Shown: positions 28,034 through 39,949 of the stretch, piece after piece
Numbering within the stretch: position 1 is the first letter of the stretch
Layout of the letters: each line of letters opens with the position of its first letter
NCBI GenBank assembly: GCA_944324475.1
Contig: CALUWK010000014.1
Location: 1-39,949 of the forward strand
Length of the DNA stretch: 39,949 nt
Direction of reading: 5' to 3'
From: Candidatus Gastranaerophilales bacterium
GTDB taxonomy: Bacteria > Cyanobacteriota > Vampirovibrionia > Gastranaerophilales > Gastranaerophilaceae
Notes under the pieces: model-generated
Database searches by the model: none
Seen by the model: only the letters and a program-made list of their open reading frames with translations
What the model was told of the DNA's origin: nothing
Made by a program: the position numbers and the translations under genes

Positions 28034-30919
28034 TTATGCAAGAGAAAAAATTTCATATATTTCATCATCAGACAACTCTGTTAATGTTCTTTCGCCTTCA
28101 AAAACAGCAGCGTTTGCAAGGTCTCTTTTATCCTTTATAATTTTATCAATTTTTTCTTCAAAAGTTGAAAGTGTGATAAATCTGTGTATCATAACATTTT
28201 TATCTTGACCAATTCGATAGGTTCTATCTGTTGCTTGATCTTCAACGGCAGGATTCCACCAAAGGTCGTAATGAATTACATTTGATGCGCTTGTAAGGTT
28301 TAAACCTAATCCTCCTGCCTTTAGAGATAAAATCATTATTTTATGATTTATATCTTCTTGAAAATTTTTAATTACTTCTTCTCTTTGTTTAACATTTAAA
28401 CTTCCATGAAAAAATAATGGGCTAAAAGAATATTCTTCTTTTATTATGTTTTCTAAAATTGAACCCATTTCCTTATATTGAGTAAATACAAGTACTTTTT
28501 CATTGTTATCTAAAATATTATTTAAAATATCAATTAGTTTTTGGCTTTTTCCTGAAGCATTTGCGCTCATATCCCCATATTTCAAGTAATGGTAAGGATG
28601 GTTGCATACTTGTTTTAAATTTGTAATTAATTTAAATATTGCACCGCGTCTTCCTATTTTATTATCCGATTTTGCAATATTTTCCATAGATTCTTTTAAA
28701 ATTCTTTCATATAGAGCAATTTGTGGTTTGGTTAAATAACAATAATCATCAAGGACGATTTTTTCTGGCAAATCAGAAATAATTGTTTTATCTGTTTTTA
28801 AGCGTCTTAACATAAAAGGACTAATGGCTTTTTTTAATTTTTCTGCACGTGTCAATTCTTTGAATCTTTCAATAGGTATTGAATAATTTTTTGAAAAATC
28901 GTTAAGTGAACCCAAATAACCTTTATTTATAAAATCAAAAATAGACCAAAGTTCAGATAATCTATTTTCAACGGGAGTACCTGTCATTGCAACTTTCATT
29001 TGTGTTTTAATTGCTTTAATAGCTTGTGTTTGACTGGTTGATGGGTTTTTAATATTTTGTGCTTCGTCAATTATAAGTAAATCCCAATTTGTTTTTTCAA
29101 ATTTTTCCAAATCAATTCTTAAAATTGCATAAGTTGTTAAAATTATATCGCAATTTGTTGAAAACTCACGATTAAAACCATGATAAGTTAAAGTTTTTAA
29201 GCTTGGTGCGAAAGTATTTAATTCCCTTTTCCAATTACCCATTAAAGTTGTTGGGCAAACAACAAGTGCTGGTTTTTTAAGTTTATTTTCTTCTTTTAGT
29301 TTTAAAATTAAACTTATAACTTGAATTGTTTTACCAAGACCCATATCATCTGCTATGCAACAACCAAAACCTTTGTTAATATTGGTATATAACCACTTAA
29401 AACCAATTTTTTGGTATGCTCTTAATTCTCCGTTTAATTTTTTAGGCAGTGTAATTTCTTCAACTTTGGTAAAATCCGATATAACTTTTGCGAAAGCTTC
29501 ATCGTAATCAAAGTCATAATCATCAATTTTTCCAGATAGAGCATTATGCAAAAGTTGCATTTTATTCACATTGAAATTTGGAGTTTTTTCAAGTTTTTGA
29601 ATTAATTTTTCTGTTTCTTCTTTATCAATTAAAATATAACGATCTTTATAATTAATTAAACCTTGTGAATTTTTTGCAAGTTGTATAAATTCTTCTGCTG
29701 AAATTTTTTCATTATCTCCAAGTGCAATTTCAATTTTAAAATTCATTATTTCATCAAGAGATATCGTTGAACCTGTTGGATTTTCAAGCAAGTCTTTAAT
29801 ATCTTGGAGTCTTTTTTCTTTGATTTTAGCATTTATTGAAGCTCTTGGAATGATAACATTGTCTAGTCCTTCGGGAAGATTAACTTCCATTCCTGCTTGA
29901 GAAAGATAATATGAAATTTGTGTAATTAATTTATATACACCTGTTAAATCAAGCTCCATTGTGACGTCTTCAAGATCTTCAATATATTTTGTCGCCCAAT
30001 TTATTTGTTTTTCAATTAAAATTTTATTTTCATCAGATAATTTTTCTAATTCTATAATTTCATTTTTTGTTTTATCTTTTGCTAAAATTTTTAAAAGAAA
30101 TTTATCATCAGATAATTTTTCAATATTGAAAACAGGTACAATATCATAACTTCCGAGACTCATCTCATCAAACCAAGTTTGAATATCATTAGCTAAATCA
30201 TTTCCTTTAAAAATTCTTTTTTGAAGAGTATTTTTAACTAGATAAGGAGCTGCTTTTAAGTCTTTAAAGCGATAATGTTTTACGTTTAAAAAAGTAAAAA
30301 TTAAGTAGTTTAGATATTTTTCTATTAATTTTTTTGTTATTTCAGGATTTAAAAAATCATTTTCTATAATTTCACTATAAACTCTTAAAAAATCTTTGTT
30401 TTGAAAATAAGGTTCCCAAAATACACTAAAAGTATCTTTTTTAAAATTTACAGCAGGAATAAAATGCATTTTTTCTACTGCTTTTTTTACAAATTGAAAA
30501 AGGTAAAAATAAAATTTGTAGCTATTTGAACAGTCTGATAAATCAAGATTTTCATCAACTCCTGTATAATATTCAAAAAACATGTCAAGACTTATTTTGT
30601 ATCCGTAGTTAGAATTTTTATATTCAGGTCTTAGTTTGTATAATGAACCTTTTGATTTTAAGTAATAACCGAAATTATAAGGTGGAGTTATAAAAATACT
30701 TGCTGCATTATTATTTAATTCAAGGATTATTTCTGTTTGTCTTAAAATAGGATTTTTGGTATCGAAAGTATCTGCAAATTCTTCTTCTATAAGTTCATAT
30801 ATTAAAGAAAGAGTATATCTAAAATCTTTATTCTTCTGTGAATAAGGATTTTGGTCAAGATTTAAAAGCAGTTTTTCTATATTGTTTTTCTTAAAACTCA
30901 AATTGAAATTTTTATTCAT
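28034..30919 (-). CDS. SNF2-family ATP-dependent helicase-like protein
   Basis: A 961-residue protein with a C-terminal SNF2 motor. Motif I is DDMGLGKT (524-531), followed by VVCPTTLMGNWKREL, motif II DEAQNIKNP (617-625), TGTPVENRLSELWSIFDF, and the helicase C domain with VLVFTQYKEMGSILENI, LFFHGS, LSLKAGGLGLNLTSASNVIH and ATDRTYRIGQDK. Residues 1-490 are a long N-terminal region found in bacterial SNF2 proteins (Snf2-associated domain plus unknown segments). I see no SWIM Cys-His zinc motif. Bacterial members remodel DNA- or RNA-polymerase-bound complexes; the exact role is unknown. It converges with the XRE gene. Confidence 0.93.
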   Translation of the reverse strand: MNKNFNLSFKKNNIEKLLLNLDQNPYSQKNKDFRYTLSLIYELIEEEFADTFDTKNPILRQTEIILELNNNAASIFITPPYNFGYYLKSKGSLYKLRPEYKNSNYGYKISLDMFFEYYTGVDENLDLSDCSNSYKFYFYLFQFVKKAVEKMHFIPAVNFKKDTFSVFWEPYFQNKDFLRVYSEIIENDFLNPEITKKLIEKYLNYLIFTFLNVKHYRFKDLKAAPYLVKNTLQKRIFKGNDLANDIQTWFDEMSLGSYDIVPVFNIEKLSDDKFLLKILAKDKTKNEIIELEKLSDENKILIEKQINWATKYIEDLEDVTMELDLTGVYKLITQISYYLSQAGMEVNLPEGLDNVIIPRASINAKIKEKRLQDIKDLLENPTGSTISLDEIMNFKIEIALGDNEKISAEEFIQLAKNSQGLINYKDRYILIDKEETEKLIQKLEKTPNFNVNKMQLLHNALSGKIDDYDFDYDEAFAKVISDFTKVEEITLPKKLNGELRAYQKIGFKWLYTNINKGFGCCIADDMGLGKTIQVISLILKLKEENKLKKPALVVCPTTLMGNWKRELNTFAPSLKTLTYHGFNREFSTNCDIILTTYAILRIDLEKFEKTNWDLLIIDEAQNIKNPSTSQTQAIKAIKTQMKVAMTGTPVENRLSELWSIFDFINKGYLGSLNDFSKNYSIPIERFKELTRAEKLKKAISPFMLRRLKTDKTIISDLPEKIVLDDYCYLTKPQIALYERILKESMENIAKSDNKIGRRGAIFKLITNLKQVCNHPYHYLKYGDMSANASGKSQKLIDILNNILDNNEKVLVFTQYKEMGSILENIIKEEYSFSPLFFHGSLNVKQREEVIKNFQEDINHKIMILSLKAGGLGLNLTSASNVIHYDLWWNPAVEDQATDRTYRIGQDKNVMIHRFITLSTFEEKIDKIIKDKRDLANAAVFEGERTLTELSDDEIYEIFSLA

Positions 30920-38250: not shown

Positions 38251-38411
38251 AAGCTTGCCTTTCTCTTGATTAAGTATAGCAAATTTTTTAAAAATTTAAA
38301 AGTTAAAATTCATTATTTTAATTCCACGATAATTTTTAAATATACCCAGATGTCTAATTTTAATTTATATTTTTAATTCATAAAATAATTCTTAAATTAA
38401 GGAGAAAGATG

Positions 38412-39278
38412 ATGCAAAATCAAAAAAGTATGTTTATGACCCCGCCAAAAGTTGAGCTTAAAGAATTGCAAAATTTATTTTTTCAGCTTTGTACAAAAAC
38501 TTGTAATTTAAATTGTAAGCATTGTTATATTCAAAGAAATCCATTTAAAAATGAAGAAGATTTTATTTCTTTGGATAAGGTAAGACAATCCCTTTTGCTT
38601 GTTAAAGGTAAAAAATTAAATTCAATATATTTAACAGGCGGAGAACCTTTAATGCACCCTGACTTTAACCAAATTTTAAGAATGTGTCTTAAAGTTTCAA
38701 ATACAACAGTTATGTCAAATGGTGTTATGATTAATGATAAAAAAGCAAGATTTTTAAGAAAAATTGATGATGAAAGCCAATTTGAAACTATTTATAGAAT
38801 AAGTATAGATTCAGCAGATGAAATAGAAAATGACGAATTAAGAGGAAGGGGTAGTTTCAGAAAAGCAATGAATGCTATTTTAAGTTTATTGAAATATGAA
38901 TTTAATCCTATAATCAGTGTGGTTAATTATAAAAATCGACCAAAAGAAGAAGTTTTTAACGAATTTTGGAATTATTTTTATAAAAAAGGTTTTGAATTAG
39001 ATGATATAAATTTAAAAATAATTCCTTATTTTTCAAAGACGGATGAAACAAGCCAAGTTGAAATGATTGAAAATATACAGATTGATAAATTAGATTGTTA
39101 TAATTCAAGAGTGGTTTCACAAAATGGAGTTTATTCATGTCCTATGTTAGTTGATGATTATAGGGCGAGATTAGGTTCTTCGCTAAATAATTGTTCTAAG
39201 ATTAATTATTTGGATTGTGAAAAGTGCACTATATGTACAAAAACAAATCAAAAAGTCCAAGTTAACGATTGGATGTGA
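38412..39278 (+). CDS. Radical SAM protein
   Basis: A 288-residue protein from ATG 38412, chosen because AAGGAG lies 7 nt upstream; ATG 38409 is only 4 nt from it. The radical SAM cluster is CNLNCKHC (Cys31, 35, 38), followed by YLTGGEPLMHPDF, the usual GGEP motif, and SNGVMI. The C-terminal part has a Cys pattern (PMLVDD preceded by SC, then NCSKINYLDCEKCTIC) like a truncated SPASM or twitch region that could bind a second Fe-S cluster. The substrate is unknown, and no precursor peptide is adjacent. Its stop codon touches the start of the GC-rich repeat block, so the 3' end could have been trimmed. Confidence 0.88.
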   Translation: MQNQKSMFMTPPKVELKELQNLFFQLCTKTCNLNCKHCYIQRNPFKNEEDFISLDKVRQSLLLVKGKKLNSIYLTGGEPLMHPDFNQILRMCLKVSNTTVMSNGVMINDKKARFLRKIDDESQFETIYRISIDSADEIENDELRGRGSFRKAMNAILSLLKYEFNPIISVVNYKNRPKEEVFNEFWNYFYKKGFELDDINLKIIPYFSKTDETSQVEMIENIQIDKLDCYNSRVVSQNGVYSCPMLVDDYRARLGSSLNNCSKINYLDCEKCTICTKTNQKVQVNDWM

Positions 39279-39335
39279 ACCCGAGCCGAGCGAAACGCAG
39301 TGCAACTGCACACGTTGAGCGAAGGCGAGGGCAAA

Positions 39336-39395
39336 GGTGTGTGAAGGGCGTGACGGTGAAGCGGGAGCTTCAGCGAACAGCCCGCAACCGTACCC
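39336..39395. repeat. 60-bp hairpin module, copy 1
   Basis: Begins GGTGTGTGA and ends AACCGTACCC. Outer stem GGGC (39346-39349) with GCCC (39380-39383); 7-nt spacer GTGACGG; inner stem TGAAGC (39357-39362) with GCTTCA (39367-39372) around GGGA; 3' spacer GCGAACA. Compare copies 2 and 3. Confidence 0.8.
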
Positions 39396-39437
39396 GAGAG
39401 CCAAGGAGCGGACGCCAGTCCAGCGAACGGCTCGAGG
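39395..39437. repeat. 43-bp hairpin module, copy 1
   Basis: Identical to 39504-39546. Outer stem GAGCC (39398-39402) with GGCTC (39429-39433), 7-nt spacer AAGGAGC, inner stem GGAC with GTCC around GCCA, 3' spacer AGCGAAC. The plan (outer stem, 7 nt, inner hairpin, GCGAAC-type spacer) is the same as in the 60-bp modules. Confidence 0.85.
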
Positions 39438-39442
39438 GCAGA

Positions 39443-39502
39443 GGTGTGCGAAGCACGCAGGCAGGAGCGTTGAGCTCGTGCCAAGTGCGTAGTCCGTACC
39501 CC
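39443..39502. repeat. 60-bp hairpin module, copy 2 (diverged)
   Basis: Begins GGTGTGCGA and ends CCGTACCCC. Outer stem GCAC (39453-39456) with GTGC (39485-39488); inner stem GGCA-G-GAGC with GCTC-G-TGCC, one G-G mismatch, loop GTTGA (39469-39473). The length is 60 bp, as in copies 1 and 3. Confidence 0.65.
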
Positions 39503-39503
39503 A

Positions 39504-39546
39504 CGAGAGCCAAGGAGCGGACGCCAGTCCAGCGAACGGCTCGAGG
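39504..39546. repeat. 43-bp hairpin module, copy 2
   Basis: Exact copy of 39395-39437. Like copy 1, it follows directly on a 60-bp module, so the pair (60-bp plus 43-bp) is itself a repeated unit. Confidence 0.85.
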
Positions 39547-39650
39547 AACTGCGAAGCCGGTGCGATAACGAGCTTTCGTTCAGAAAGCGAGTTAAGCACT
39601 ACGAATGCGACGTTTCAAATTCTTGCCGAAGGCGAATTTGTCAGGAGCAA
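39546..39650. repeat. 105-bp tandem repeat, copy 1
   Basis: Differs from copy 2 by one base (GAACT versus GAACC). Hairpin 1: outer GTGC (39560-39563) with GCAC (39596-39599), inner AAC-GA-GCTTTC with GAAAGC-GA-GTT, with tandem G-A mismatches, loop GTTCA. Hairpin 2: CAAATTC (39616-39622) with GAATTTG (39634-39640) and an inner GCC-GAA-GGC. Confidence 0.9.
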
Positions 39651-39755
39651 GAACCGCGAAGCCGGTGCGATAACGAGCTTTCGTTCAGAAAGCGAGTTAA
39701 GCACTACGAATGCGACGTTTCAAATTCTTGCCGAAGGCGAATTTGTCAGGAGCAA
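39651..39755. repeat. 105-bp tandem repeat, copy 2
   Basis: Follows copy 1 without a gap and has the same two hairpins. Unlike copy 1, it continues into the hairpin at 39766-39798. Confidence 0.9.
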
Positions 39756-39765
39756 TGGGAATGAT

Positions 39766-39798
39766 GTAAAACCGTAGCGCGACTGCGCTAGGTTTTAC
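39766..39798. repeat. Strong hairpin after the tandem repeats
   Basis: GTAAAACC (39766-39773) pairs with GGTTTTAC (39791-39798), and AGCGC (39776-39780) with GCGCT (39785-39789) around GACT. There is no T-run, so it is not a typical terminator. The left half recurs at the end of the window. Confidence 0.8.
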
Positions 39799-39810
39799 GA
39801 ATGACCCCAT

Positions 39811-39870
39811 GGTGTGTGAGCTCGTGACGGCAGAGCGTTGAGCTCTGGCGAACAGAGCGAAACCGTACCT
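39811..39870. repeat. 60-bp hairpin module, copy 3
   Basis: Begins GGTGTGTGA and ends AACCGTACCT. Outer stem GCTC (39820-39823) with GAGC (39855-39858); spacer GTGACGG as in copy 1; inner stem CAGAGC (39831-39836) with GCTCTG (39842-39847), loop GTTGA; 3' spacer GCGAACA as in copy 1. Confidence 0.8.
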
Positions 39871-39872
39871 AA

Positions 39873-39949
39873 GCGACGTTTCAAATTCTTGCCGAAGGCG
39901 AATTTGTCAGGAGCAATGGGAATGATGTAAAACCGTAGCGCGACTGCGC
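39873..39949. repeat. Third partial copy of the 105-bp repeat and following hairpin, cut by the window edge
   Basis: These 77 bases are identical to 39712-39788: the end of the 105-bp unit plus the left half of the GTAAAACC hairpin. The identity runs to the last base, so the array continues beyond the window. Confidence 0.9.

Follow-up and report, generated by a model that had tools for sequence, protein, structure and literature searches.

Hairpin modules, probably mobile and non-autonomous, form a GC-rich array in a Gastranaerophilales genome and recur within RNA and protein genes of related genomes

To our knowledge, Rickettsia offers the best-known cases of palindromic repeats that lie within both protein and RNA genes, and we know of no mover for them. 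The Rickettsia palindromic elements (RPE) occur in AT-rich hosts as palindromic units of 105-146 bp, inserted in frame in protein genes and also in the genes for tmRNA and RNase P (M1) RNA (PMC2229807), and repeats of the CGTC type, which include some RPE, are without a dedicated transposase (PMC3733652). The bacterial MITEs (Correia/NEMIS, ERIC and RUP) are non-autonomous, short and foldable, and some of them lie in frame (PMC2229807). The window described here is a whole contig of 39,949 nucleotides from a 1.72-Mb assembly, and the contig stops within an array of palindromic modules, named P, M, Q, N and T below. In a comparison of habits, RPE appear to be the closest known kind, and the modules would represent a second, unrelated lineage with Rickettsia-like palindrome habits.

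The likeness to RPE lies in the AT-rich hosts and in the sites that are occupied. Palindromic repeats stand in frame in protein genes (the RseP-like genes of genomes G000, G127, G198 and G107, and the prepilin leader at locus L228), and structural RNA genes have received insertions: RNase P RNA at P3 and P12, and tmRNA and tRNA genes at their 3' ends. Unlike RPE, the repeats here are small interchangeable hairpin modules which nest and are duplicated in tandem; they target the exact 3' ends of tRNA and tmRNA genes, their stems are hypervariable and covary, and they belong to another phylum. They resemble the MITEs in being non-autonomous, short, foldable and in some cases in frame, but no TA duplication was found and several modules make up one element; the M module has the outer helix GGTGTG/CGTACC. 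REP/BIME elements with RAYT are also short palindromic dispersed repeats that are arrayed and mostly intergenic; however, the Y1 transposase is almost absent from this genus, and the M ends GGTGTG/CCGTACC are without the GTAG tag. The N module carries GACGT near one end.

The small dispersed repeats (SDR) of Nostoc, which Elhai is said to have described in 2008, reportedly measure 21-27 nt, show compensatory changes, nest in themselves and have been proposed to move by an RNA-mediated route. Compensatory changes and nesting in own copies are found here too, and the phylum is related, but the present modules measure about 42-60 nt and the composites about 150-177 bp. The short tandem repeats (STRR) in rnpB of heterocystous cyanobacteria, reportedly treated by Vioque in 1997, are said to sit inside an RNase P RNA hairpin; here repeats are likewise found within such a hairpin, but as covarying modules common to many other genomic sites. 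A search of part of the openly readable literature found no account of such repeats for Gastranaerophilales or Melainabacteria.

The array starts two bases past the TGA of a radical-SAM gene and extends up to the contig end in the order P-M-P-M-P-[Q-N]-[Q-N]-T-M-N-T(cut) (Table 1). It is GC-rich, in a window with a GC content per kb of 18-33%. The original prediction had placed its modules correctly but drew the block too short: the true block spans 39280-39949 and adds the Q-N tandem pair and the T palindrome. The three modules with common ends (GGTGTGYGA...CCGTACC) that it described are present as M modules 1-3, with sizes of 59, 58 and 59 nt. The two 43-bp modules that it took to have the same plan (39395-39437 and 39504-39546) match one another at 100% identity and belong to P; the GGTGTG/CCGTACC ends are missing from them, so that the plan is not that of M. 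The two Q-N units, of 105 bp each, form a tandem pair. Stems of at least five pairs were present in 39 of 78 N copies, against a shuffle mean of 13, some of the 78 being chance matches. That the block might be contaminant sequence had also been considered, and is contradicted because modules lie within other contigs of the same genome (in the RseP reading frame on C1, in RNase P RNA on C3 and beside tmRNA on C29) and because congener G127 has an array at the orthologous place.

Table 1. Modules of the array and the gene upstream of it, by position in the window; boundaries of the P, Q, N and T modules are approximate.
Feature	Position	Strand	Remark
Radical-SAM gene	38409-39278	+	Immediate upstream context, outside the element
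P module 1 (CCCGAGCC..hairpin..GGCGAGGGCAAA)	39280-39335	+	Same module found in P3 of RNase P RNA
M module 1, 59 nt	39336-39394	+	74.4 bits; C3 has an identical copy inside RNase P RNA
P module 2 (CGAGAGCC..GGCTCGAGGGCAGA)	39395-39442	+	
M module 2, 58 nt, longer inner stem subtype	39443-39500	+	57.7 bits
P module 3	39504-39546	+	Identical to 39395-39437
Q module 1 (GCCGGTGCGA..CACTACGA hairpin)	39547-39604	+	Similar Q-N pair in RNase P RNA P12 of another genus (L074)
N module 1 (GCGACGT..CAGGAGC hairpin)	39607-39648	+	
Q module 2, tandem copy	39652-39709	+	Q-N unit 99% identical
N module 2	39712-39753	+	
T palindrome (ATGGG..CCCAT, 56 bp)	39755-39810	+	Folding z -5.7
M module 3, 59 nt	39811-39869	+	83.7 bits
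N module 3	39873-39914	+	
Second T palindrome	39916-39949	+	Truncated by contig end

The swaps of outer and inner stem originally noted between M modules 1-3 were borne out, the stems being changed yet paired, and the three modules folded singly on the + strand with z = -2.8, -4.5 and -3.1. When 32 chosen copies were placed on a hand-written structure, 98.9% of cells were paired and double-sided changes numbered 71, against 18.5 in shuffled alignments and no more than 11 when the pairing partner was slid. A covariance model built on these copies found 100 distinct M copies, of which 97.2% of cells were paired with 267 double-sided changes, against 69 shuffled and at most 34 slid, in an alignment that is fitted to the structure and therefore leans in its favour. 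The pairing of M is beyond chance. In the same 100 copies the outermost pair varies (G-C in 78, A-U in 15, others in the remainder), which supports the outer helix, and two G-U pairs of this helix are almost fixed. In 72 of the 100 copies the apical loop reads GTTGA or GATGA, of the type GNTGA, and no inverted apical loop was seen among the M copies. Each inner stem is replaced as one block, and G-U states are very rare (11 G-U and 2 A-C among 913 cells); helices 2 and 3 of the 32 copies have four one-sided against 71 double-sided cells. Comparison of the array with Rfam 15 returned chance-level matches far under the gathering scores and no described family.

The exact M pattern matched 38 stretches in a scan of 84,980 species genomes, with titles naming Gastranaerophilales, Galligastranaerophilus, 'Cyanobacteria bacterium SIG27' and uncultured bacterium; the coordinates of the matches under the last title agree with genomes of the same family. 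The pattern was found in none of the Rickettsia records of that scan, and had no match in viral contigs. Further copies sought with the covariance model were dispersed in this genome and present in 109 of the 383 family genomes, including 26 of 28 congeners, with no M in the other two at the threshold used; copy numbers are lower bounds, with 14 candidates scored per genome. A phylum-wide draw of 386 genomes added two with M that fall outside the family but within its order. In these searches the modules stay within Gastranaerophilales and their order. The records that bear names come from metagenome assemblies, whose contigs often terminate in arrays.

In the RNase P RNA of this genome, RF00010 places the P1, P2 and P3 stem around an inserted P-M-P array when sufficient upstream sequence is supplied. 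RNase P RNA was readable in 25 congeners, three more being without a match, and P3 is filled by modules or arrays in 15 of the 25 and native or nearly so in ten (slightly enlarged in G145). The P3 array of G207 (L097) consists of the same modules in antisense, and in G057, G127 and G208 the contig stops inside the P3 array. Placed on the RseP tree, the state of P3 requires at least five changes, and well supported branches force three of these. P12 has Q-N-type inserts in eight of the 25 congeners. Together these copies suggest that RNase P RNA can carry P3 inserts of up to roughly 300 bases. Long Q-N-type inserts in P12 were also seen in several genera (L073-L075, L092, L094-L096 and L106-L109).

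In several genera the M model also matches behind tmRNA, either immediately or at a distance of about 200 bases, as part of a 177-bp P-M-N unit. Copies of this noncoding unit begin, in sense, on the final bases of tmRNA, tRNA-Ala, tRNA-Leu, tRNA-Lys and tRNA-Ser genes (loci L277, L279, L296, L298, L300, L303, L304, L308 and L330). When this genome is set against genus g33, the stretch of the unit that was compared is 98.7% identical and the tmRNAs 63% identical, and over the cross-genus pairs compared the unit has an identity of 88-99% and the tmRNA of 59-70%. Its tail is T-arm-like (GTTCGATTTTACGGACATTATCTCCA) and its usual right end is TCTCCA. At a tRNA-Ser the right end is TCTCCG and at one tRNA-Leu ATGCCCA, each matching the target; at a tRNA-Lys (L315) it matches little beyond CCA, at the tRNA-Leu of L314 it does not match the target, and at two tRNA-Ala sites the match spans five bases only. 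The two informative sites suggest that insertion at the ends of tRNA and tmRNA genes may duplicate some 5-7 target bases.

The reading frames that flank the 177-bp unit vary between genomes, and no integrase was recognised among them by eye. As the main reading of this unit, a conserved non-coding RNA was rejected because the unit is conserved far above its tmRNA and is found at five kinds of tRNA or tmRNA gene; the remnant of a single genomic island was also rejected, as the downstream genes differ between genomes. Several genomes have the 177-bp unit placed after another insert behind tmRNA, unit B. Where it follows tmRNA at L277, L278, L280, L281 and L282, unit B has an inverted T-arm-like start (as GAGTCGAACCC) and closes with a host-like tmRNA 3' end.

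Copies also lie in protein genes. A P-M-P insert lies in frame within a 508-residue RseP-like protease of this genome (M50-type with a HEIGH motif, the family assignment resting on sequence motifs). The RseP-like gene is present in all 28 congeners, and 24 have a shorter variable loop with no insert; the four inserts encode peptides such as ESQGASDSEANGSRAEVCE.. and EPSELSESLASEGEG.. in differing arrangements, with all frames open. In congener G191 (C52, L228, reverse strand) an antisense array is located in the leader of a type IV prepilin. This leader is long and GC-rich from the antisense hairpin modules, and the leader of a similar pilin (L177) is short.

In 31 of 31 neighbouring pairs the M modules follow each other head to tail, the gene upstream of the array runs in the same direction in 41 cases and in the opposite direction in 22, and eight M copies in P3 are sense. 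A strict sense orientation within genes was considered, and is contradicted by P3 of G207 and by the prepilin leader. Most M copies are intergenic, so that those in genes may be rare survivors. Genome G127 has a shorter array behind the orthologous radical-SAM gene, and in G021 the radical-SAM homologue adjoins the RNase P RNA, with no array match in that genome.

The array is probably a mosaic of non-autonomous hairpin-forming mobile modules of the five kinds, which insert, nest and duplicate. A non-autonomous mobile element was among the possibilities originally raised, and it agrees with the dispersed copies, the filled and empty sites, the nesting and the near-identical units across genera; the distribution, the insertion sites in genes and RNAs, the 177-bp unit, and the orientation and growth of the arrays all support mobility. 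Copies would insert between genes and wherever an extra hairpin is tolerated, such as the RNase P RNA loops P3 and P12, tmRNA and tRNA 3' ends, the variable loop of the RseP-like protein (in frame) and, once, a prepilin leader, and after insertion they would grow by nesting and head-to-tail duplication. We infer that an enzyme supplied in trans recognises a folded single strand, either RNA or single-stranded DNA, by its constant ends, internal loops and apical loop. Recognition by fold would mean that the stems can change only as matched pairs, and template-switch repair of the arms may help such matched change. Insertion at tRNA and tmRNA ends would duplicate the 5-7 or so target bases mentioned above. 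The majority of copies are probably selfish, with an almost neutral effect on the host. Tentatively, the modules could form a new modular mobile class, in which interchangeable hairpins recognised by shape spread into structured RNA genes (loops of RNase P RNA and, with short target duplications, the exact 3' ends of tmRNA and several tRNAs), possibly by way of RNA or single-stranded DNA and a putative enzyme. The Y1 transposase was detected in one of 28 congeners and reverse transcriptase in 12 of 28, neither being found in this genome, in assemblies which may be incomplete. The many genomes, the filled and empty sites and the near-identical 177-bp unit across genera provide material for finding the mechanism.

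The original prediction held that kept pairing implies selection on the fold. Pairing is indeed kept, but the inference is unsafe, because template switching during replication likewise keeps stems paired (PMC8794818) and whole-block stem change with few G-U states fits it. That the compensated stems come mainly from template switching between the arms (quasipalindrome correction), with no selection on the fold, is nevertheless doubtful; this account covers the covariation only and is compatible with mobile modules. The documented mechanism, the replacement of whole stems, the four one-sided against 71 double-sided cells and the 11 G-U among 913 speak for it, whereas the apical and internal loops are conserved, the apical loop is never seen inverted and the wobble pairs are nearly fixed. 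The near-fixed G-U pairs, the conserved GNTGA-type loop and the excess of G-U over A-C (11 to 2) point to folding of the + strand, contrary to a purely DNA-level account. The few one-sided states favour template switching, and the wobble pairs, loop and G-U excess favour a selected fold; selection on an RNA fold is possible, and selection on the folded form, in movement or in a transcript, may contribute jointly with template switching. Covariation by itself does not prove that an RNA has a function in the cell. That the modules are a conserved family of structured RNAs with such a role (e.g. 3' end protection or regulation), their compensation reflecting selection on the RNA fold, is very unlikely: the nearly fixed outer-helix G-U pairs, the conserved apical and internal loops, the inner-stem G-U to A-C ratio and the mild excess of arrays behind same-direction genes (41 against 22) would agree with it, but there is no Rfam match, copy number and position differ among relatives, other functional RNAs and a protein gene contain copies, and two congeners are without M at the threshold used. 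The suggestion of a repeat-rich non-coding RNA, as a new RNA gene, was not upheld either, given the Rfam result and the modules inserted in or beside other genes.

Other means of movement can be weighed against the same copies. REP/BIME-like elements had been proposed too, and short palindromes that are arrayed, many of them 3' intergenic, are in keeping with them; movement by a RAYT (Y1) transposase is however highly improbable, as Y1_Tnp occurs in one of 28 congeners and is absent from this genome, with control genomes positive, against M in 26 of 28, and the M ends carry no GTAG tag. The 3' ends of tRNA and tmRNA genes are classical attachment sites, and together with the constant orientation and T-arm-like tail of the 177-bp unit this could indicate a tyrosine recombinase acting there in trans, with the modules spreading later by other means. 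Such a recombinase is quite unlikely, since inspection by eye revealed no integrase among the adjacent reading frames, the last bases follow the target at two sites, contrary to a fixed core, and the RNase P loops and RseP are left unexplained. Spread through RNA, in which a hairpin RNA is attached to the 3' end or a loop of another RNA and then reverse transcribed, as was reportedly suggested for the Nostoc SDR, would suit targets of which several are structured RNA genes, hit at exact 3' ends and loops and mostly in sense, but it appears unlikely in view of the antisense array in the RNase P RNA of G207, and because no reverse transcriptase was detected in this genome or in 15 of the other congeners.

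Apart from the array, the window encodes an SNF2-type helicase on the - strand (28034-30919), for which the best NCBIfam match is the SCO1167/SCO6262 family, under the curated cut-off.
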